Assembly (NCBI GenBank): GCA_011389735.1
Contig: JAABTS010000027.1
Span: 1 to 45,811, forward strand
DNA length: 45,811 nucleotides
Direction of reading: 5' to 3'
From: Desulfobacteraceae bacterium
GTDB taxonomy: Bacteria; Desulfobacterota; Desulfobacteria; Desulfobacterales; JAABTS01
The first letter of the stretch is position 1; every line of letters begins with the position of its first letter. Below are positions 4,979-45,811 of this stretch, in pieces. The notes under the pieces were generated by a model that saw only the letters and a program-made list of their open reading frames with translations, was not told the origin of the DNA and did no database searches. The position numbers and the translations under genes are program-made.

Positions 4979-5084
4979 TACAGATTTTCAGAAATTAAAT
5001 TTCACAAGGCGGAAGGCCCGGGATCATACTATTCCCGTATTCCGGGCCGGCGGCACAGTGATATTGAATTTCCGGAAGGCTATA
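4979..5084. repeat. Dispersed palindromic element A, copy 3
   Basis: Arms read CAGATTTTCAGAAATTAAAT and ATTGAATTTCCGGAAGGCTA. They enclose a second GC-rich palindrome, GGCCCGGGAT ... ATTCCGGGCC. It fills most of the gap between the Mla lipoprotein gene and the acyltransferase fusion, transcribed in the same direction. Confidence 0.75.
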
Positions 5085-6737: not shown

Positions 6738-7503
6738 TGGATTTGTTCGCTTTTTCAGGGTTGGGATTGAAAAATCGTTTTACTTTGGGATTATCGCTTT
6801 CGTTCATCAATTTTTGAGGCCGGCCTTCGGCGATAACGCCTTTGGCTTCTTTATCCAGCATGATGACCCGGTGCGCCAATCTGAATATACTGGCCAGTTC
6901 ATGGGTGACAATTACTACTGTGGCGCCCGCGGTTTCATTGATGCTGATAATCAGGTCGTCGATTTCGGCTGATGTGATCGGATCCAATCCGGCCGACGGT
7001 TCATCCAGAAACAGGAATTTGGGATTGAGCGCCATCGCCCTTGCCAGGCCGGCTCGTTTTTTCATGCCGCCGCTGATTTCCGACGGAAAATGGTCTTCAT
7101 AATCGCCCAGCCCAACAGTTTTCAGTTTGATTTTGACAATATCCTTGACCGCTTCGGCGGGTAGTCCGGAATATTCGGTAATGGGCAGGGCTACGTTTTC
7201 ACCTACGGTCATGGAACCCATCAGTGCGCCGCTCTGAAACAAAACGCCGATTTTCCGTCTGACCGAACAAAAGTCCATATCCGCACAGGTGATGATATCC
7301 GTACCGTCCACCAGAATGCTCCCGGATATCGGTTTTTCCAGCCCGATCATATGTCGCAGCAAAGTGCTTTTGCCGCATCCGCTCCCCCCCAGAATGATAA
7401 AGATTTCATGCGGCTTGACGTAAAACCCCACATTTTCAAGAATCATGGAATCCCCGTATCCGGCGGACAGATTTTTAACTTCTATGGCTGTCAAAAGTTC
7501 CAT
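6727..7503 (-). CDS. mlaF: ABC transporter ATP-binding protein, MlaF type
   Basis: 258 residues with a complete nucleotide-binding domain: Walker A GGSGCGKST (39-47), Q-loop Gln90, signature SGGMKKR (144-150), Walker B LFLDEP (164-169) and the H-loop His in IVTHEL (near 198). The SGGMKKR form of the signature and the 'GALMGSMTVGENVALPI' region are characteristic of MlaF/Ttg2A proteins rather than of nutrient importers. It powers the MlaE permease from the cytoplasmic side. It begins 9 bp after mlaE stops and overlaps mlaD. No defect is seen. Confidence 0.93.
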   Translation of the reverse strand: MELLTAIEVKNLSAGYGDSMILENVGFYVKPHEIFIILGGSGCGKSTLLRHMIGLEKPISGSILVDGTDIITCADMDFCSVRRKIGVLFQSGALMGSMTVGENVALPITEYSGLPAEAVKDIVKIKLKTVGLGDYEDHFPSEISGGMKKRAGLARAMALNPKFLFLDEPSAGLDPITSAEIDDLIISINETAGATVVIVTHELASIFRLAHRVIMLDKEAKGVIAEGRPQKLMNESDNPKVKRFFNPNPEKANKSNGV

Positions 7504-7512
7504 TGTTGTCCG

Positions 7513-8673
7513 TTATAAACTCCGAATGACCGCGAACAAGGAATCGAACAAAATAATGAAAAATATGCTTCTGACCACGGCTGATGTAGCGGCGTTTCCG
7601 ACAGCCGCAGCCCCGCCGCTCGCCCGAAACCCCTGCAAACATCCGATCAGCGCGATCAATACGGCGAAAACAGCGCTTTTGCCCGTACCCCAGGCCATTT
7701 CCTTGAGGCTGAGCACCTCAACGGTTTCCCGGATATAGGTGACGGCGCTTAGATCCAGCATCAACACTCCGACCATCAACCCTCCGAAAATCGCGAACAG
7801 GTTCGAAAACAGAGTTAAAATCGGCACCACTATAAATGCGGCGATCAATCGAGGCGCCGCTAAAAACAATGTAGGATCGAATCCCATTGTGGTCAGGGCG
7901 TCGATTTCTTCGTAAATCTTCATGGTTCCGATTTCAGCGGCGTAGGCCGAACCGGAACGGCCGGAAACCACAATGGCGGTCATAATGGGCCCCAGTTCCG
8001 ACACCATGGCGAATCCCACAAGGGACGCCACGTACAAGCCGGCGCCGAATTGACGGAATTGAATCGCCGCCATGAACGCCATGATCGATCCCAGCAGAAA
8101 ACTGATAAGCGCAATGATCGGCAGCGCCGCCACTCCTGTTTTTTCCATATGATCGATAGTGTCCCCGATTCGAAGTTTTTTCGGATTGGCGCCGATCTTT
8201 ACAAACGCCATAACCACCGATCCGATAAAAACCAACAGGAACCCAAGGTGTTTGGTCTCCTCGATGGTTGTTTCTCCAAGCCGGGTTATCAGAGGGCCCA
8301 ATCGCCGTTTTTTTTCAAGAAGTTCAGGCTGTTTGCCGTCGAACACGGGGTCATCGAGCAATTCCCTTCCGTTTTCCGGATACGGTTCGCGGATTTGGAA
8401 CGTATCGCCGACCGTTCCGGTGATTCGCTTGATATGATGAACCGCGGCGGCGCCGTAGTCGTCCATGTAGGTGACTTCGGAAAGATCCACAGCGGCCGTG
8501 CGTGGAGACCGTCCCGAAATTTCGGACGAAATCGAATCGAGCAAATCCCCCGCGGTGTGATTGTCCAGTACGCCCTTGAAACGGATCAACACGCCGTTTT
8601 CGCCGGTTTCCGTTATTGTGTATGAAAACCGTGAATCTGATTCTAAATGCGCTGTTTTAAATTCGTCAGACAT
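7513..8673 (-). CDS. mlaE: MlaE-family permease with N-terminal STAS domain
   Basis: 386 residues. The first 120 form a STAS-like domain (VDLSEVTYMDDYGAAAV near 63-79), a module that in other Mla systems is the separate MlaB protein or is fused to MlaE as here. Residues from about 140 on are the permease, with five or more membrane helices and the family signature around AAEIGTMKIYEEIDALTTMG, the cytoplasmic coupling region that meets MlaF. First gene of the operon mlaE-mlaF-mlaD-lipoprotein. The start is the first Met; no strong ribosome site is visible. A partial copy of repeat A lies just upstream. Confidence 0.92.
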   Translation of the reverse strand: MSDEFKTAHLESDSRFSYTITETGENGVLIRFKGVLDNHTAGDLLDSISSEISGRSPRTAAVDLSEVTYMDDYGAAAVHHIKRITGTVGDTFQIREPYPENGRELLDDPVFDGKQPELLEKKRRLGPLITRLGETTIEETKHLGFLLVFIGSVVMAFVKIGANPKKLRIGDTIDHMEKTGVAALPIIALISFLLGSIMAFMAAIQFRQFGAGLYVASLVGFAMVSELGPIMTAIVVSGRSGSAYAAEIGTMKIYEEIDALTTMGFDPTLFLAAPRLIAAFIVVPILTLFSNLFAIFGGLMVGVLMLDLSAVTYIRETVEVLSLKEMAWGTGKSAVFAVLIALIGCLQGFRASGGAAAVGNAATSAVVRSIFFIILFDSLFAVIRSL

Positions 8674-9997: not shown

Positions 9998-11818
9998 TTG
10001 TCTGAAGCATCCTATATTATCGGAATTGATCTGGGAACCACCAACAGTATTGTGGCTTATACGGAGGCTCGGATCGAAAAAGGAAAGCAGCCGGAGATCC
10101 ATGTTCTGGAAATCCCCCAGTTGACCGGGCCGGGGGCGATTGAAAACCGGATGATGCTTCCGTCGTTCATACTGATTCCCGGGTCTCATGAAGTTCCGGA
10201 AGGGGCCCTCAGGGTTCCCTGGAACCCGGATGCGAAAACAGCCGTCGGTGAATACGCCCGCGAGCGCGGCGCTGAGATACCGAATCGGCTGATTTCGTCT
10301 TCCAAATCCTGGCTATGCAACACCCTGGTGGATCGTAACAGCCCCATTCTTCCCTGGAACGCCGGAGACGAAACCATGAAGCGATCTCCGGTCGAGGCGG
10401 CGTCCCTGATACTGGAACATGTCCGGAACGGCTGGAACCATGTCATGGCGTTCGAAGATCCGGATCTGGAAATTGAAAATCAGGAAATTCTACTCACGGT
10501 TCCGGCGTCGTTCGATGCGGTCGCGCGCGAACTCACGGTCCAGGCGGCTGAAATGGCCGGGCTGACCAACATTACGCTTTTGGAGGAGCCTCAGGCGGCG
10601 TTGTACGCCTGGATAGACGCGGGAGGAGACCATTGGCGGGAATACGTTCAAAAAGGAGACCGGATTCTGGTGTGCGATGTTGGCGGCGGAACTTCCGATT
10701 TCAGCCTGATCGACATAACCGAAGAAGACGGGGATCTGGTTCTTGAACGGGTCGCTGTGGGAGACCATTTGCTGGTGGGCGGTGACAACATGGATCTTGC
10801 CCTGGCCTATTCGGTGGCCGAGGAAATGAAAAAGGAAGGCCAGAAGATTGATAACCGTCAGATGCGGGGACTCCGGCACGGATGCCGCAAGGGAAAAGAA
10901 CTTGTTATGGCGGATTCGGATCTGGATTCGTTTCAGGTGACGGTGCTGGGAAGCGGGAAAAGTTTGATCGGAGGGACGAAAAAGAAACAAGTGTTGCGCC
11001 AAACCGTTGAGAGTACGGTTATCGAAGGGTTTTTCCCAAATTGTCAAATCGGAGACAGGCCGGCCGAAGCCGCCAAGGTGGGCCTTAAAGAATACGGCCT
11101 GTCCTACGAATCCGATCCGGCGGTCACCCGGCATTTGGCCGCCTTTTTAAATCGGAACCGGACCGGCGGATCTGAAAAATTGCCCACGGCCGTTTTGTTT
11201 AACGGCGGCGTAATGAAAGCGCCGCCTGTTCGCAGGCGGATCATGGACGCTATTTCGTCCTGGAGCGAGAGTGGGTCGGAAACCGGGATACGCGAGATCG
11301 AAAGCAAAGATTTCGATTTGAGCGTGGCCCGTGGAGCCGCCTATTACGGGTTGGCCCGGCGGGGCGGCGGCATTAGAATCCGAGGCGGATTAAACAAGTC
11401 CTACTATATCGGCGTGGCCGCATCCATCCCCGCCGTGCCCGGAATGCCCACGCCCATCAAAGCGCTCTGCGTCGCGCCCTTTGGAATGGAAGAAGGAACC
11501 CGGGTACGGCTGGAGGACAGGGAATTCGTACTAGTCGTCGGAGAACAGGTCAAGTTCGACTTTCTGGGATCTTCGCAGCGGATCAACGATACATCCGGAG
11601 CCGTAATCGACGACTGGGAAGACGAAATTGAAGAAATATCCACGCTGGAAACCTTTCTGGACGGAGAAAACGGAACAGTTGTCCCTGTTTTTATCGAATC
11701 CGCCGTAACGGAAATCGGGACTCTCGAAATCCACTGCGTTTCCCGTGAAGACACCTCCATGAAATGGAAACTCGAATTCAATGTAAGGGAGACAGACCAT
11801 ATTGAATCTTCCGGATAA
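9998..11818 (+). CDS. Hsp70-like ATPase (first of two)
   Basis: 606 residues from a TTG start, with AAAGGAG upstream. The actin-like ATPase fold is clear: phosphate-1 loop IGIDLGTTNS (8-17), phosphate-2 loop ILVCDVGGGTSDFSL (about 223-237) and a later GGVMKAPPVR region corresponding to the adenosine motif. The canonical DnaK substrate-binding beta-sandwich is not evident; the C-terminal about 130 residues are a different, beta-rich, acidic segment. It is therefore not DnaK but a divergent Hsp70 homologue, possibly acting on a dedicated client. Its last 17 bp overlap the start of the second Hsp70 gene, indicating coupled translation. Both proteins share the stretch running from IGIDLGTTNS to the LTGPG/LTGAG motif, so they arose by duplication. 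Confidence 0.88.
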   Translation: MSEASYIIGIDLGTTNSIVAYTEARIEKGKQPEIHVLEIPQLTGPGAIENRMMLPSFILIPGSHEVPEGALRVPWNPDAKTAVGEYARERGAEIPNRLISSSKSWLCNTLVDRNSPILPWNAGDETMKRSPVEAASLILEHVRNGWNHVMAFEDPDLEIENQEILLTVPASFDAVARELTVQAAEMAGLTNITLLEEPQAALYAWIDAGGDHWREYVQKGDRILVCDVGGGTSDFSLIDITEEDGDLVLERVAVGDHLLVGGDNMDLALAYSVAEEMKKEGQKIDNRQMRGLRHGCRKGKELVMADSDLDSFQVTVLGSGKSLIGGTKKKQVLRQTVESTVIEGFFPNCQIGDRPAEAAKVGLKEYGLSYESDPAVTRHLAAFLNRNRTGGSEKLPTAVLFNGGVMKAPPVRRRIMDAISSWSESGSETGIREIESKDFDLSVARGAAYYGLARRGGGIRIRGGLNKSYYIGVAASIPAVPGMPTPIKALCVAPFGMEEGTRVRLEDREFVLVVGEQVKFDFLGSSQRINDTSGAVIDDWEDEIEEISTLETFLDGENGTVVPVFIESAVTEIGTLEIHCVSREDTSMKWKLEFNVRETDHIESSG

Positions 11819-14588
11819 ACGCTATATTATCGGAATCGACCTGGGAACCACCAACTCCGCCGTATCCTATGTAGACCTGAGCGAAGACGGAGACCTTTCG
11901 AAGCGGATTAAACTGTTTCAGGTTCCTCAGTTGACCGGCGCCGGCGAATTCGCCAACGCGCCCGTGCTGCCGTCGTTCATGTACATCCCCGGAGAATATG
12001 ACATTTCCCGGGACGCCATATCCATTCCCTGGCCCACCGAAGAGGACGATTTTGTCGGCGCTTTCGCCCGGGATCACGGCTCAAAAGTTCCTGCCAGGCT
12101 GGTGTCGTCGGCCAAAAGCTGGCTCTGCCATTCCCGGGTGGATCGGCGGGCGCGAATTTTGCCGTGGGGCGCCGGAGAAGAGGTCTACAATGTCTCCCCG
12201 GTTCAGGCTACAGCCGCTTATTTGAAACATATCCGCAAAGCCTGGAACAGCACAAAGGGGGATAATGCGGATGAATATTTGGAAAATCAGATAGTTATTG
12301 TTACGGCTCCGGCGTCTTTCGACGAGGTGGCCCGGGATCTGACCGTTGAAGCCGCGACAATGGCCGGGTTAAATGAAATCACACTGCTCGAAGAACCGCT
12401 GGCGGCCTTTTATAGCTGGTTGATCCGTCATGAAAAAGACTGGGATCAATATGTTCAACCCAATGAATTAATTCTTGTTTGCGACGTGGGCGGAGGGACG
12501 ACGGACTTTACGCTTATCACGCTGCGGGAGGTCGATGGAAGCCCCCGGTTTGAACGAATCGCCGTCGGGGATCACTTGATCCTGGGCGGAGATAACATTG
12601 ACCTGGCCCTTGCCCGGCGGATTGAAACCGCCATTTCCGGAAAACGAAAAAAAGGCCTGTCTTTGACTCAGGATAAATGGAAGGCTCTTTGTCACGAATG
12701 CCGCCAGGCCAAGGAAATGATCCTTGGAAACAAAGCTGAATCCCGCAAGATTACCCTTGTGGGCGAGGGCCGCAAACTGATTTCCGACACTATTTCCGCG
12801 GAAATGAAACGAGATGAGGTGGAAGAAACCGTGCTGGAAGGGTTTTTTCCCGTCGCTGATCCCCGTGAAGCCCGAAAGACCGAGACCCGGAAAGGCATCA
12901 CCGAGTTCGGGCTTCCTTACGAACAGGAACCCGCTATAACGCGCCATATCGGATGGTTTCTGGACCGCCACAAAGAACAGGTTCTCAATGTTCTTCAACG
13001 GGAAGACTATACGCCGGATCTGATTTTATTTAACGGAGGTTCGCTCAAATCCGGAATCGTGCAGGAAAGAATCCGCGCCGGAGTGCGCCATTGGTTCGGA
13101 CTTGACGATCCGGGGGCTCCAAGGGTGCTCGAAAATCCCGATCCCGACCTGGCTGTGGCTTACGGCGCTTCGTATTACGGGCTCGTCAAGACAGGCATAG
13201 GCGTCCGCGTCGGCAGCGGCAGCGCCAGATCGTATTATATCGGCGTGGGGCGGAACTCAGGGGCGGATGCGGATGAGCGCAGCGCCGTGTGTATTGTGGA
13301 ACGAGGCCAGGAAGAGGGGAGCCAACTGGAGCTTGCCGGCCGGGATTTCGATGTACTCGCCAATCAGCCGGTGACCTTCGATCTGTATAGCTCCAGCTTT
13401 CGATCCGGAGACCGGTTCGGAGATATCCTCAAAGTGGATGAAACTCTGACCCCTCTTCCGCCTATCCAGACCGTAGTTCAATACGGAAAAAAAGGCGCCA
13501 GAACCACTATACCGGTGCGTATCGAGGCCGCTTACACCGAAATGGGAGTCCTGGCGCTCTGGTGCCGGTCTCAGGTGAGCAACCATAAATGGCGGCTTCA
13601 GTTTCAGCTCCGGGACGCCCCTAAATCAGCCGAAGTCAAACAAAAAGACGTGTTCGACGAATCTGTGGTGGCGGAGGTCAAGGAACTGGTTCGCGTTGCA
13701 TTTTCGAAAACCGGCGATCAAAGCCTGCTCGACGGTTTGATGAAAAGCATCGGCGGCGTAGTCCAACGGTCGAAGAACGACTGGCCTTTAACTTTGATTC
13801 GAAGCATCGCCGATGAATTGATCGCCATGTTGCCGCTCAAGGGCGTATCCCAAAAATTTGAACTCCGATGGCTCAACCTGGCCGGATTCTGCATGCGGCC
13901 CGGATTTGGCGACGGATTCGACGAGGAACGAATCAAGGCTCTTTGGAAATTGCACGACAAGGGGCCAATCAACGAAGGAAATCCCCAGGTTCGTTCGGAA
14001 TGGTGGATTTTCTGGCGTCGGGTCGCCGGAGGACTTCAGCCGGGCAGGCAAAGACAATTCATCCAGGATTTGACGTCCATCCTGGCTCCGAAAAAGAAAG
14101 GCGGCAAAAAGCTGCATCCCCAGGAGCACCTTGAAATCCGGATGGCCGTGGCCAATATGGAACGTCTGCTGGTGAAAGATAAAATACGCTGGGGAAATGA
14201 GCTGCTCAAGGAAATCAATCCCAAAAAAGCAAAGCCTCAGCAATTATGGGCTCTGTCCCGGATGGGGGCCCGCGAATTGTTATACGGCTCGGCTGATCGA
14301 GTTATTCCTCCGGAGGAAGCGGCTAAATGGATCGAACGAATGATATCGGAACCCTGGGCCAATTCCAAACAGGTCGCGGACGCACTGGTTCAAATCGGCC
14401 GGAAAACAGGTGATCGAACCCGTGATATACCCCCGGAACTAGTTGATAGAATAATTCAATGGCTTAAATCTGTCGATCTCGCCGACGATTATGAAAAATT
14501 CCTGACCCGGGTGATACATTTCGAAAAACAGGAGGCTAACCGGATTTTCGGAGAATCATTGCCGTCAGGGCTTATCTTGCGGGAATAG
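11802..14588 (+). CDS. Hsp70-like ATPase with C-terminal helical extension (DUF3731-like)
   Basis: 928 residues from a TTG start inside the end of the previous gene, with AAGGGAG ten bases upstream. The N-terminal 600 residues repeat the plan of the preceding protein: IGIDLGTTNS near 10-19, LVCDVGGGTTDFTL near 227-240, and FNGGSLKSG in the adenosine region. The extra about 300 residues are helical and rich in Trp, Arg and Lys (e.g. SEWWIFWRRVAGGL), matching what I recall as DUF3731, an extension peculiar to these Hsp70 homologues. Paired Hsp70-like proteins of unequal length suggest a heteromeric complex with the DUF2760 membrane protein. Function is unknown; ATPase activity is very likely. 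Confidence 0.88.
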   Translation: MNLPDKRYIIGIDLGTTNSAVSYVDLSEDGDLSKRIKLFQVPQLTGAGEFANAPVLPSFMYIPGEYDISRDAISIPWPTEEDDFVGAFARDHGSKVPARLVSSAKSWLCHSRVDRRARILPWGAGEEVYNVSPVQATAAYLKHIRKAWNSTKGDNADEYLENQIVIVTAPASFDEVARDLTVEAATMAGLNEITLLEEPLAAFYSWLIRHEKDWDQYVQPNELILVCDVGGGTTDFTLITLREVDGSPRFERIAVGDHLILGGDNIDLALARRIETAISGKRKKGLSLTQDKWKALCHECRQAKEMILGNKAESRKITLVGEGRKLISDTISAEMKRDEVEETVLEGFFPVADPREARKTETRKGITEFGLPYEQEPAITRHIGWFLDRHKEQVLNVLQREDYTPDLILFNGGSLKSGIVQERIRAGVRHWFGLDDPGAPRVLENPDPDLAVAYGASYYGLVKTGIGVRVGSGSARSYYIGVGRNSGADADERSAVCIVERGQEEGSQLELAGRDFDVLANQPVTFDLYSSSFRSGDRFGDILKVDETLTPLPPIQTVVQYGKKGARTTIPVRIEAAYTEMGVLALWCRSQVSNHKWRLQFQLRDAPKSAEVKQKDVFDESVVAEVKELVRVAFSKTGDQSLLDGLMKSIGGVVQRSKNDWPLTLIRSIADELIAMLPLKGVSQKFELRWLNLAGFCMRPGFGDGFDEERIKALWKLHDKGPINEGNPQVRSEWWIFWRRVAGGLQPGRQRQFIQDLTSILAPKKKGGKKLHPQEHLEIRMAVANMERLLVKDKIRWGNELLKEINPKKAKPQQLWALSRMGARELLYGSADRVIPPEEAAKWIERMISEPWANSKQVADALVQIGRKTGDRTRDIPPELVDRIIQWLKSVDLADDYEKFLTRVIHFEKQEANRIFGESLPSGLILRE

Positions 14589-15793: not shown

Positions 15794-15898
15794 TATAGCT
15801 TTTCAGATGATTAATTCCACTGCGTTGTCGGCCCGGGATGTACGAATAGTATTTCCCGGGCCCGCCGCCTGGTGAAATTTAATTCCTGAAAAACTATA
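15794..15898. repeat. Dispersed palindromic element A, copy 5
   Basis: The clearest full-length copy: TATAGCTTTTCAGATGATTA ... AATTCCTGAAAAACTATA as outer arms and GGCCCGGGAT ... ATTTCCCGGGCCC as inner arms. It begins about 6 bp after the transporter stop codon. Confidence 0.8.
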
Positions 15899-15924
15899 TT
15901 ATGGTAAAAATAGATATTCTACCA

Positions 15925-16173
15925 TCATGATTTCGAACCAAAAACTTTCATCCAGATGAAATGAAATCGTTTTTCAATCTTCTCATCTGGAATGTTGGGG
16001 GTAAAATTTTTATATTTCAGGACTTTTTTTAAAGTATCCTCTTGGTCTGTATCCCCTATTTACTTGAGTATCTCCATCGCATCATCAATATCTTTGTTCC
16101 CCCTGAATGCGCCGGTGAGTTTCATCCCAAGCATTTCTTCCCATTCTGAGGCATAAAGTATCAGATTCTCCGG
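15925..16173 (-). pseudogene. Unrecognised gene remnant with an in-frame stop
   Basis: On the minus strand one frame reads ENLILYASEWEEMLG and KLTGAFRGNKDIDDAMEILK, stops at TAA (16060-16062), and goes on without another stop for 44 codons (VLKYKNFTPNIPDEKIEKR, FHFIWMKVF). No start codon or upstream domain remains because the frame opens right after a TAA. The residue pattern looks protein-like (amphipathic, no low complexity). It could be the 3' end of one small gene followed by the end of another, or one gene with a nonsense mutation. I do not recognise the family. Confidence 0.4.
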
Positions 16174-16224
16174 TTACCGACATAAACCGGGACACGCGTC
16201 ATAACTGCGTCATATGGTGTATGT

Positions 16225-16355
16225 GCGAGGGCCTCTTGCTCTGAATGCTCTGAGCGGGTTTGTAACCCGCGCCATACGAAGCACCAGGCTCCGGCTCCAT
16301 GCGACAGGCTAAGCCGGGGGTTGCAAACCCCCTCTGAGCGGGATAGTAGGACGGC
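16225..16355. repeat. Dispersed palindromic element B, copy 2
   Basis: Contains both palindromes of the family: GCGGGTTTGTAACCCGC near 16255 and GGGGGTTGCAAACCCCC near 16315. Between them is a diverged middle (ACGAAGCACCAGGCTCCGGC), also present in the copies at 1 and 33780. Confidence 0.75.
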
Positions 16356-16384
16356 CCTGAAAAGTGTCCCGGATTATAGCGGTA

Positions 16385-16446
16385 GCCCATTACGCCAAAA
16401 TCAGCGGCGCGGCTTTTTGCGTCCGCTGGATTTTTTTGTTATGTGC
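16385..16446 (-). other. Integron attC-like site 2, probably decayed
   Basis: Read on the minus strand: R'' ACATAAC, left arm AATCCAGCGG, loop ACGCAAAAAGCCGCG, right arm CCGCTGATT, then R' GTAATGG where GTTRRRY is expected. The left arm carries one extra base relative to the right arm (ATC-C-AGCGG against ATC-AGCGG), the extrahelical base typical of attC folding. The loop and arms match the site at 17565-17629. The GTT to GTA change suggests loss of function. Confidence 0.6.
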
Positions 16447-16829
16447 CATTTTCGCCTTGCAAATTTTATCTTCAATTTTCTATAGTCCAGACTTCTTCAA
16501 AGGGATTTTGTCAAGGGGGTCTCCATATCGATATAAATAAATATAGTTATATCAGTATGATTAAAAAATGCCCATTTTCGATTGCCTAATTTTGCGACAT
16601 TTCAATAAATGCCTGTTTTTTAAAAAATGTTTTCCTCCGCCTTGATGAATTGGCGAAGTCTGAAAATCAATATTTATATTACAATTATTGACCGTTACGG
16701 GGGCATTAAAAAAAAGGCATATTGATAGCACGAAGCAGCCCACCCCAATAGGGCAAACGTTCGTTTGATATTCTAAACTTTTTCTGTTCTTGCGAAACTT
16801 TTGCATAGGATAATTATGTGCAACTCCGA
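16447..16829. other. AT-rich stretch inside the cassette
   Basis: An AT-rich region of about 380 bp between the PAS gene stop and attC-like site 2. An 81-codon open frame on the minus strand (16561-16806) is the only one of note. It has no ribosome site, domain or sensible composition pattern, so I do not call it a gene, though cassettes can carry a second small frame. Confidence 0.35.
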
Positions 16830-17549
16830 TTAATCATCATACAGGTCCATATCGGGATAGTATTTTTCTGCACACTCCTTGCAAATGCTGTGACTAAACT
16901 CAGCATCGGAATGCTCATGGATGTATGCCTCTATTTGTTTCCAATACCCTTTATCATCTCTGATTTTTTTACAATGCATGCATATGGGAAGGAGACCGCT
17001 CAGTTTTTTCACTTTGGCCAAAGCTTCTTGAAGATCGGAGATCAACTGTTCCTTTTCCAATTCGGCTTCTTTTCTCGCCGTAACATCCGTGTGCGTGCCC
17101 ACAACACGCAGAGGCTTATCATCATCTGTCCAGCTTAAGATCTTGCCTCGATCGAGAATCCATTTGTAAGAACCATCTTTGCATTGAAGCCTATGCTCGT
17201 TTTCGTAGTAAGGAGTATTGCCTTCCAAATGCGCATTGAGATCTGCGTACACTGAATCTCTGTCGTCAGGATGAATGCGTTTATCCCATTCTGTTAATTC
17301 GTTCAATATTTCATTTTCCTCGAAGCCAAGCATCTTTTTCCATCTCGTCGAAAAGAAGACCTTTCCGGTAACAGCATTCCAGTCCCAAACACCATCACGA
17401 TTCCCTTCCATTGCGTAGACCCAACTTAGCTCTTTATCTTTCGAATTTTGAGCAGCCTCAGTAAGATTGGTAGCTACTCTTTTTAAATCGGCAATCTGAT
17501 TTTGGAGGTCTTTGATTAGATGCTTACTTGTGTTCTCTTGATTGCTCAT
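16830..17549 (-). CDS. Cassette-borne PAS-domain protein with C-terminal Cys motif
   Basis: 239 residues from the ATG at 17549 (GAGGATATCC just upstream; a frame reaching 17570 is also open but runs into the attC site). An N-terminal coiled coil (about 8-40) is followed by a PAS_3-type domain with PAC tail (about 45-160; WDWNAVTGKVFFSTRWKKML and VVGTHTDVTARKEAE). Next is a short coiled coil and a C-terminal module LSGLLPICMHCKKIRDDKGY with a later ICKECAEKYYP. That Cys/His-rich tail is common at the ends of PAS and response-regulator proteins of this group of bacteria. No kinase or GGDEF output is present, so it is a stand-alone sensor or titrating partner. It starts 16 bp after an attC core site, the usual cassette position. 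Confidence 0.8.
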   Translation of the reverse strand: MSNQENTSKHLIKDLQNQIADLKRVATNLTEAAQNSKDKELSWVYAMEGNRDGVWDWNAVTGKVFFSTRWKKMLGFEENEILNELTEWDKRIHPDDRDSVYADLNAHLEGNTPYYENEHRLQCKDGSYKWILDRGKILSWTDDDKPLRVVGTHTDVTARKEAELEKEQLISDLQEALAKVKKLSGLLPICMHCKKIRDDKGYWKQIEAYIHEHSDAEFSHSICKECAEKYYPDMDLYDD

Positions 17550-17564
17550 GGATATCCTCATAGG

Positions 17565-17629
17565 CCACATAACGTGGCTCTTCAGCGGGCGCGGTTTTTT
17601 GCGATCCGCTGCAAGAGCATGGTTATGTT
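17565..17629 (-). other. Integron attC-like site 1
   Basis: On the minus strand: R'' ACATAAC, left arm GCTCTTGCAGCGG, loop ATCGCAAAAAACCGCGC, right arm CCGCTGAAGAGC, R' GTTATGT. The left arm has exactly one unpaired extra base (G) relative to the right arm, the diagnostic extrahelical base of attC sites. It sits 10 bp after the stop of the upstream gene and 16 bp before the PAS gene start, exactly as between two integron cassettes. Confidence 0.75.
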
Positions 17630-17639
17630 ACCAGTTGTA

Positions 17640-18000
17640 TTAATGGATATTTCGAACTCTTGGCAACTTGTTTTCTGCTGCTCCAATAATTTTTTCAGGT
17701 AATGACGATATTAATTCGTTGATTTCGTCATATACATATGTCTTCAAAACCCAAGGAAAACTTTTAAAATGTTCGAACATTCCATATTCATGCTGAGAGC
17801 TAAGAAGTATCGGCTGAATTGGTACAGACGGTAAACTTGGAACAATACGCATAAGCTCCTGTGGAACACTTTTCGCGTCGGTGAGGTCCGCTATGATGAA
17901 ACGCGCCATATGCGCTAAAATTGATACAGTTTCAGTTATATCTCTACCTGATGGTTTCTCGAAATCAAATAAAACTGGCAAATAGTCTTTTTTCCCCCGG
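17640..18000 (-). pseudogene. 5'-truncated cassette gene (TIR-associated-like hypothetical)
   Basis: About 115 codons look genuine: DYLPVLFDFEKPSGRDITET, LAHMARFIIADLTDAKS and FKSFPWVLKTYVYDEINEL match in memory a conserved C-terminal region of small Rossmann/TIR-like hypothetical proteins often carried by cassettes. Upstream of about 17990 the frame runs into an IS21-type terminal repeat, so the N-terminal half is gone and the Met at 18047 is fortuitous. The stop lies 10 bp before attC-like site 1, so this was the preceding cassette. Probably nonfunctional. The family name is uncertain; the truncation is better supported. Confidence 0.55.
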
Positions 18001-18455
18001 ACGGCCACCCAAATTCCCCCACCCGTGGCCACTTCAAAATCCCCCATCTGAGGTAGCTATCTCTAACCAATAGAAATAACGTATAATTTTCTATACTTTT
18101 TTGGCGACAAAGCGTTAAATGGGCTCTCACGATAATTTATCAAAGAAGGGAGCCGGAAAGGATGAACGTTTTGAAACCAAATAAAAAAAATGCAATCACC
18201 GTACTTCTCGCTAACAATTTGAGTCAACACGAAATTTGCCGTAAAACCGGCATTGATCGAAAAACAATTCGGAAATACGCCGCTATATTAGCGAACGAAG
18301 ATTCACAATCAAAATCCCCTATCATCAACGAGGCGGCAGCCGGCCGGATTGATGGCGTAAATCAAAATCCCCCACCCCGACCACCGGAGAATAATCAGGC
18401 ATTCGAAAATGACCTGAAGATCCCGGTTCATGCCAAATCCGCATGTAAACCTCAT
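17988..18455 (+). mobile_element. Left-end remnant of an IS21-family element
   Basis: Two related direct repeats, CGGCCACCCAAATTCCCCCA (18002-18021) and TGGCCACTTCAAAATCCCCC (18026-18045), are like the multiple terminal repeats of IS21-family ends. They precede the start of a truncated istA. The right part of the element and istB are missing. Its left edge cuts the cassette gene at about 17990; the exact end base is unclear. Confidence 0.6.
18162..18455 (+). pseudogene. istA: Truncated IS21-family transposase istA
   Basis: About 98 N-terminal residues remain. A helix-turn-helix (LSQHEICRKTGIDRKTIRKY, 20-39) and the conserved NQNPPPRPP segment and IPVHAKSACKPH are typical of IstA proteins, which normally run to about 350-520 residues with a DDE catalytic core. 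After H98 (base 18455) the frame leaves the family and enters unrelated sequence and repeat B. The catalytic core is absent. The start has GGAAAGG directly upstream. Confidence 0.7.
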
Positions 18456-18514
18456 CAGGGTGTGTTACGCCGCTCATACCGATTTTCCATAGAATACCTC
18501 ACGAATGTCTTCAC

Positions 18515-18590
18515 TGCTCTGAGCGGGTTTGTAACCCGCGTGTACCCTCTCGCGGCCAACGGGGATTGCAAATCCCCTTGGAGCATGAGG
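18515..18590. repeat. Dispersed palindromic element B, copy 3
   Basis: GAGCGGGTTTGTAACCCGCG followed at about 30 bp by CCAACGGGGATTGCAAATCC. The same two-palindrome order and spacing occur at 43421-43481. Confidence 0.75.
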
Positions 18591-18607
18591 CGGTTTTCCT
18601 TCAGCCA

Positions 18608-18832
18608 CTAATTATTTCTTTTACGCGGCCATTTGGGTTCAGTTTTCTTTTTTCTGAGATATTCGCCTGTGCCGGATTCGAACCGATCAACAAAGGAATC
18701 GTCGCCAAAAGGCGCGTCCCGTTCATGACAAAAGAGGGAAATAAAAATAGTTTGTCGCCGGCGATCGCCCATGTGCCCATGTGTTATCTGATTCGCATAT
18801 CGAGCAATCACGGCTCTTGCCGTCCGCACCAT
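18608..18832 (-). pseudogene. Probable C-terminal remnant of a REP-associated (Y1) transposase
   Basis: The minus-strand frame ends HERDAPFGDDSFVDRFESGT plus EYLRKKKTEPKWPRK, resembling the tail of TnpA-REP (RAYT) transposases, which typically end with a GRPLGDDxFVxxLE ... LRPQKPGPK pattern. The catalytic HUH and Tyr motifs are missing and the upstream part does not match. This would fit a genome littered with REP-like palindromes, but the identification rests on a short tail. Confidence 0.4.
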
Positions 18833-20668: not shown

Positions 20669-20820
20669 TATAGCTTTTCAGATAATTTATTTCACTGCGT
20701 TTTCGGCCCGGGATATACGAATAGTATTATCCCGGGCCGGCCGTTTTGTGAAATTTAATTCCTGAAAACTATAGCGTTTCAAAAATTGAATTTCACAAGG
20801 GGCCGGACTTGGGATTATGC
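20669..20820. repeat. Dispersed palindromic element A, copy 6, plus a partial copy
   Basis: Full copy 20669-20775 (TATAGCTTTTCAGATAATTT ... AATTCCTGAAAACTATAG with CCCGGGAT ... ATCCCGGGCC inside). Its end runs straight into a part copy of one arm (TTTCAAAAATTGAATTTCAC, to 20820). It lies 26 bp upstream of the purN start, so it may be transcribed in the purN leader. Confidence 0.75.
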
Positions 20821-28305: not shown

Positions 28306-28467
28306 TCCTGAAATTCAATCTCACCGGCCGAAACGTATCAGCGGATCACCCCGAACCCGCTTAACCGCGCCGTTTAATTTCACAAAGCGGCGGGCCCGGG
28401 AGACGCTGTTCGTATATTCCAGGCCCAAAACACGGTGAAATTTAATTTCCGGAAGACTATATCCTTG
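28306..28467. repeat. Dispersed palindromic element A, copy 7, with an extra arm
   Basis: The core copy is 28372-28467 (TTTAATTTCACAAAGCGGCG ... GTGAAATTTAATTTCCGGAA with GGGCCCGGGA and CCAGGCCC inside). A further arm, CTGAAATTCAATCTCACCGG, lies at 28306-28325. It sits between two divergently transcribed genes. Confidence 0.7.
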
Positions 28468-33700: not shown

Positions 33701-33735
33701 AAATGCGGGCTTGATTCTAAGATCGGCCGGAGCGC

Positions 33736-33885
33736 CAGGGTAAGCCGGGGGTTGCAAACCCCCTCTGAGCGGGTCTTTTGTTCTGAGCGGGTTTGCAACC
33801 CGCGACTTACGAAGCGCCGGTCTCCGGCTTTGGCGCTCCGGAGCAACCAGAGAAACTATGGCCGAAATTAAAATCAAGCCCAACA
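33736..33885. repeat. Dispersed palindromic element B, copy 4
   Basis: GGGGGTTGCAAACCCCC followed by GCGGGTTTGCAACCCGC. The tail CTTACGAAGCGCCGGTCTCC ... GGCCGAAATTA is almost the same as that at 37-100. The order of the two palindromes is swapped relative to copies 2, 3 and 5. Confidence 0.75.
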
Positions 33886-45708: not shown

Positions 45709-45743
45709 ATTAAAAATTTATCCCGCCCCGGCGGGCCGTTCCA

Positions 45744-45811
45744 TAGCTTTTCAGATAATTAATTTTACTCCGTTGTCGGCCCGGGGATATACAATTTATT
45801 ATGTTGAATGT
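45744..45811. repeat. Dispersed palindromic element A, copy 12, cut by the window end
   Basis: CATAGCTTTTCAGATAATTA, TTTTACTCCGTTGTCGGCCC and GGGGATATAC match the left half of copies 5 and 6. The right half is replaced by ATGTTGAATGT, the beginning of a heptamer array like that at 39452. Confidence 0.65.

Follow-up and report, generated by a model that had tools for sequence, protein, structure and literature searches.

The stretch of DNA analysed here, referred to as the window, is an entire contig (C172, 45.8 kb) of a 6.5-Mb genome assembled in 477 contigs. On its minus strand, a gene for a PAS-domain protein lies between two hairpins of the attC type, the 3′ end of another gene lies on the far side of the first hairpin, and DNA of mobile elements is present at both ends of the arrangement (Table 1). 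The PAS gene probably starts at ATGAGCAATCAA, 16 bases past the R′ box of site 1, with GAGGAT upstream of it as a possible ribosome site. Its product consists of an N-terminal coil, a PAS fold and a C-terminal CxxC...CxxC segment, the last of which belongs to no Pfam family. The protein matched PF08447 with an E-value of 4e-24 (85.1 bits against a cut-off of 25.6), and the nearest solved chain was PDB 3mr0 (E 5e-26). Searches of NCBIfam and of anti-phage libraries gave no specific function for either this protein or that of cassette 1.

The stretch between the two crossover points, i.e., the PAS cassette, has TTATGT directly past the crossover G at its start and ACATAAC (R″) at its end. The two ends complement each other exactly, which is what a single circularised cassette would give, and the stretch has the properties by which a gene cassette is recognised, namely a gene with its own attC and complementary ends. 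A preliminary description of this DNA had claimed a stop-attC-start spacing (10 bp and 16 bp) like that of adjacent cassettes. The claim holds at site 1, where the stop of the preceding gene (17640) is 11 bases ahead of R″ and R′ is 16 bases ahead of the PAS start. The description did not mention that 385 bp, containing no recognisable gene, separate the PAS stop from site 2.

The gene ahead of site 1 survives within an ORF at 17640–18047. The 117 residues of this cassette 1 remnant share 57% identity with the C-terminal end of a pentapeptide-repeat protein (341 aa) from another genome of the order. An IS21-like end, present in a second copy on contig C34, cuts the remnant at ~17996. The IstA-like N-terminus that follows matched NF033546 weakly, under the cut-off. 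At the other end of the locus, the R′ box of site 2 (GTAATGG) owes its last one or two bases to a MITE. The genome contains at least 12 near-full copies of this element (86–97% identity), and perfect 8-bp target duplications flank some of them (e.g., TGGAATTC and GAAAAAAT). Since the 8-bp flanks of the window copy differ (GCGTAATG vs. GGAGAATC), a clean insertion at site 2 was rejected, and it is likely that a deletion followed or that MITE copies recombined with each other. Targeting of attC sites by the MITE was also rejected, as the other copies examined sit in unrelated sequence. The MITE carries GAGCGGGTTTGTAACCCGC and GGGGGTTTGCAACCCCC palindromes that are also found alone (e.g., at 33732–33829 and 18515–18540), and past it an open frame (16165–16050, minus strand) ending in ENLILYASEWEEMLGMKLTGAFRGNKDIDDAMEILK and a stop resembles the terminal part of a small, truncated gene.

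Table 1. Coordinates of the features in the window and of integron-related features on other contigs of the genome.
Feature	Position	Strand	Description
PAS cassette	16393–17572	minus	from crossover point in R′ (site 1) to crossover G (site 2)
PAS_3-domain gene	16830–17550	minus	~239 aa from ATG at 17550; ORF open to 17570
attC site 1	17567–17628	minus	fold; R1, 50.0 bits; R2, 56.6 bits
attC site 1, boxes	R″ 17622–17628; spacer 17619–17621; L″ 17613–17618; extrahelical G 17612	minus	R″ ACATAAC
attC site 1, hairpin top	stem 17606–17611/17583–17588; terminal loop 17589–17605	minus	
attC site 1, right arm	L′ 17577–17582; spacer 17574–17576; R′ 17567–17573	minus	R′ GTTATGT
attC site 2	16387–16444	minus	R1, 70.1 bits; R2, 67.9 bits; recurrence of core hairpin in the order
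attC site 2, boxes	R″ 16438–16444; extrahelical C 16429; stem 16423–16428/16402–16407; R′ 16387–16393	minus	R″ ACATAAC; stem CAGCGG/CCGCTG; R′ GTAATGG
Cassette 1	17640–17996	minus	last ~117 codons of pentapeptide-repeat-related gene; 5′ part gone
IS21-like insertion remnant	17996–18611	plus	terminal direct repeats (GGGGGATTTTGAAGTGGCCA type); truncated IstA-like N-terminus 18162–18611
MITE, 216 bp	16172–16387	minus	terminal inverted repeats GGCTACCGCYATAAACCGGGACAC; abuts R′ of site 2
intI of complete integron	C134:5073–6026	minus	TIGR02249, 410.9 bits, over cut-off
Three ORF-attC units	C134: ~7094–7163, 7660–7747, 8382–8465	plus	beside intI
IntI-like recombinases	C46:54286–55221; C278:1361–2293		long open frames (443 and 537 aa); over integron integrase cut-off
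CALIN with two attC sites	C231:1190–4245		DNA methylase after unassigned 184-aa ORF; nucleotidyltransferase-like (DUF6036); DUF4258
Other attC sites with cargo	C6; C270; C125; C344		HNH protein (C6); AAA protein (C270); two sites (C125)

Structure and strand of the two hairpins

The attC-like hairpins had been placed at 17565–17629 and 16385–16446 in the preliminary description. Both are genuine, with slightly narrower limits (Table 1), and the CAGCGG/CCGCTG arms and the ACATAAC and GTTATGT/GTAATGG boxes ascribed to them are read in both sites. On the minus strand, site 1 runs from 17628 to 17567 as ACATAAC-CAT-GCTCTT-[G]-CAGCGG-AT-CGC-AAAAAACC-GCG-C-CCGCTG-AAGAGC-CAC-GTTATGT, and site 2 runs from 16444 to 16387 as ACATAAC-AAA-AAAAT-[C]-CAGCGG-A-CGC-AAAAAGCC-GCG-CCGCTG-ATTTT-GGC-GTAATGG. 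Folding as single-stranded DNA gave -19.5 kcal/mol for site 1 (z -4.7; 0/200 shuffles as good) and -15.1 kcal/mol for site 2 (z -2.8). An attC site is composed of R boxes, an unpaired central spacer, L boxes, an extrahelical base and a variable terminal structure (PMC11641012; PMC12901181), and both hairpins contain the spacer, the L boxes, the extrahelical base on the 5′ arm and the variable terminal structure. The R boxes of site 1 pair at 7/7 positions with AAC/GTT intact, one position off the strict RYYYAAC/GTTRRRY; site 2 has the same AAC box in R″, with GTA replacing GTT in R′. The bulge in the left arm is a single base in each site (G17612 and C16429), so that the claim of exactly one unpaired base stands for the L arm, but a further small asymmetry occurs higher up each hairpin (17604–17605 vs. 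17589 in site 1; A16422 in site 2). The bulged base belongs to the 5′ arm when the minus strand is read, which makes this strand the attC top strand, in line with the direction of the genes. The sites are in tandem, both on the minus strand and 1.1 kb apart.

Both hairpins are G+C-rich and located 3′ of genes, and other palindromic repeats are plentiful in the genome, so they could conceivably be transcription terminators or a REP-like palindromic repeat instead of recombination sites. Site 1 was caught by a hand-written scan for palindromes in the window and the intI contigs; once relaxed, the scan was too permissive for a census and was replaced by covariance models. A search of 194 genomes of the order for the core 27-mer of site 2, two positions of which could vary, found its hairpin exactly in 22, while a reversed control pattern had 0 matches. 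Nearly all of the recurrent hairpins are preceded by an ...AAC box and most are followed, at attC distance, by a GTT... box, whereas their L arms vary. We aligned 22 of these hairpins, all from other genomes and with the window sequence excluded, to build a covariance model (R1). The seed alignment contained 36 double-change cells compared with 17.0 ± 3.6 after shuffling (0/500 shuffles as high; best of seven slides).

In a 171-kb search, R1 matched the minus strand with E-values of 3e-13 at site 1 and 5e-20 at site 2, while on the plus strand site 1 scored just 22.2 bits and site 2 had no match. A wider attC model (R2), also built without window sequence, scored both sites strongly (Table 1). 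As a control, 485 kb of unrelated loci yielded one partial 19-bit match with R1 and none with R2; Rfam at gathering scores had no match in the window or the intI loci. The preliminary description had proposed a covariance search of the minus strand and had named the lack of a hit as evidence against the sites; with our own models, drawn from other genomes, both sites were decisively matched, on the strand that the description had predicted. The AAC/GTT boxes, 3-nt unpaired spacers and left-arm bulge are kept across the order while the L arms vary and covary, the covariance score is strongly strand-asymmetric, and the same type of site occurs beside intI and between typical cassette genes. A terminator or REP-like origin is therefore barely credible, and is refuted as far as sequence allows.

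Integrases and attC sites elsewhere in the genome and the order

The integron integrase model TIGR02249 had no match on the contig, in keeping with the earlier claim that the window lacks an integrase, and with no intI on its contig the locus is not a complete integron. A search of the rest of the genome, as had been suggested, found intI with attC sites on C134, IntI-like recombinases on two contigs and attC sites on five more (Table 1). Only the hand scan and, at a weak score, R1 showed the C134 attC at ~7094–7163, and the last cassette gene of that integron encodes a Uma2 family protein. No attC was found beside the C46 and C278 recombinases; IntI-like proteins of ~370 bits with long frames, resembling these two, recur across the order. 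The cargoes at the other attC sites of the genome are usual cassette cargoes.

Clusters of attC sites lacking an integron integrase are termed CALINs, of which 2961 examples are known from complete RefSeq genomes (PMC9024848). The window agrees with this class in its tandem pair of same-orientation attC sites, in having no integron integrase on the contig and a smaller number of sites than a full integron, and in its degraded ends. It does not differ from CALINs in kind, although its PAS cargo is uncommon and it is bounded by an IS21-like end and a MITE. Single attC sites without an integrase, or SALINs (PMC12690207), are represented by dispersed sites at C6, C270 and C344 and in relatives, whereas the window holds two sites and is thus over the CALIN threshold. 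The complete integron of C134 resembles the window in having attC sites of one orientation with accessory cassette genes, but it has intI and three cassettes, and two of its sites score 25–28 bits with R2 compared with 57–68 bits in the window.

These comparisons leave us highly confident that the locus is a degraded integron cassette fragment without an integrase, i.e., a CALIN, made up of a PAS cassette and the 3′ remnant of another cassette. The preliminary description had also read it as an integrase-less cassette cluster, a reading borne out by the covariance matches, the absence of intI from the contig and the presence of intI and attC elsewhere in the genome. Counted against it are R boxes that depart from the strict consensus, GTA in R′ of site 2, the unusual 385-bp gap and the unequal MITE flanks, and also that no close relative could show an empty site, the family being represented by this one genome. 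Since fragmentation inflates CALIN counts (PMC9024848) and the assembly comprises 477 contigs, the window might truly adjoin an integron whose integrase is on another contig. However, the sites are 16 kb and 28 kb from the contig ends, amid ordinary genes and mobile-element remnants, and the C134 integron owns attC sites of a weaker-scoring type; such an artefact is very improbable.

To place the CALIN in context, attC-like sites and integrases were counted in 116 genomes of the order. R2 at E ≤ 1e-4 detected attC-like sites in 96 and TIGR02249 at E ≤ 1e-60 was found in 63; both occurred in 58 genomes, and 38 had attC-like sites without a detected intI. In three near-complete chromosomes (G048, G069 and G114), attC-like sites are spread over the chromosome and are often distant from any intI; in G048, attC lies near 0.88, 1.79 and 2.62 Mb, compared with 2.18, 2.96 and 3.97 Mb for intI. 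These results suggest that attC sites, often single and distant from an integrase, occur in most genomes of the order. We regard the census as a lead and not a result, since the R2 E-values are rough, many of the assemblies are incomplete and the genomes searched with R2 included no closed one free of integrons. It is a speculative and rather unlikely extension that, throughout the order, IntI acting at non-attI sites spreads cassettes of the CAGCGG-ACGC-AAAAA-CCGCG type one or two at a time, former cassettes, including the sensor, becoming resident genes at large scale.

Origin and fate of the PAS cassette

Among PAS relatives, no attC was present in the fetched flanks of 80 from named genomes, 15 from the order (drawn from 389 genomes) and 1 from a viral contig, and the same PAS gene between attC sites, for which the preliminary description had proposed a search, was found in none of them. 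The best relative among named genomes (66% identity over residues 45–246) is in a Desulfocicer vacuolatum MAG and has the C-terminal CxxC segment in common with the window protein. However, the homologous segment there closes a larger protein of several domains, and the flanks fetched for it contain no attC, whereas the window PAS gene is free-standing between attC sites. Relatives on plasmids were all below 60% identity. Non-cassette flanks of relatives had been named, together with failure of the covariance models, as evidence against a cassette; the flanks agree with that expectation, but the models matched. The attC-free relatives are an ordinary chromosomal family from which a member was captured, and do not mark the sites as false. 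The PAS family itself looks ordinary and its capture into a cassette looks rare. A PAS sensor had been called unusual as cassette cargo, and it is indeed uncommon: besides the lack of an attC-flanked relative, our literature search found no paper that joins integron gene cassettes, attC and the PAS domain. Signal transduction is listed among cassette functions (PMC10963911).

The locus may be understood as two tandem cassettes on the minus strand, a pentapeptide-repeat-like 3′ remnant with site 1 and then the PAS gene with site 2, which an IntI recombinase would have inserted by acting on the folded bottom strand. They could have been part of a now-broken integron or a single insertion at a secondary (attG-like) site, and would later have been truncated by the IS21-like element on one side and by the MITE, or recombination between MITE copies, on the other. 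Sites of the attG type have G-WT at the junction. Arrival through IntI at such a non-classical genomic site, instead of survival from a complete integron at this position, is tenable if somewhat doubtful. In its favour are the dispersed attC sites, a long way from intI, of near-complete genomes in the order such as G048, and the junction past site 2, where a G is followed by non-cassette DNA; yet at least two tandem cassettes occupy the locus, and the junction is G-TA, not G-WT, a comparison confounded by the MITE.

Site 1 should still be a substrate for the resident IntI acting in trans. Site 2 is probably weak in recombination since GTA replaces the GTT that IntI cuts. As a result, the PAS cassette is most likely fixed in place and has turned into a normal chromosomal gene, encoding a small, soluble protein that serves as sensor or adaptor. 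As for the element, it is an ordinary remnant of an integron that provides an instance of a signalling (PAS) gene as cassette cargo. Its novelty is small and limited to the PAS gene as cargo, the damaged ends on both sides and the lead on abundant dispersed attC sites in the order, which is a good place for testing how cassettes settle into chromosomes.

Two further observations concern the remainder of the window. A dispersed repeat of ~106 bp, which contains a near-palindrome around ccgggatgtacgaatagtatttcccgg, occurs at 15797–15900, 20669–20773, 4979–5084, 28373–28442 and 45743–45785, and a 928-aa DnaK-related protein with DUF3731 is encoded at 11802–14588.
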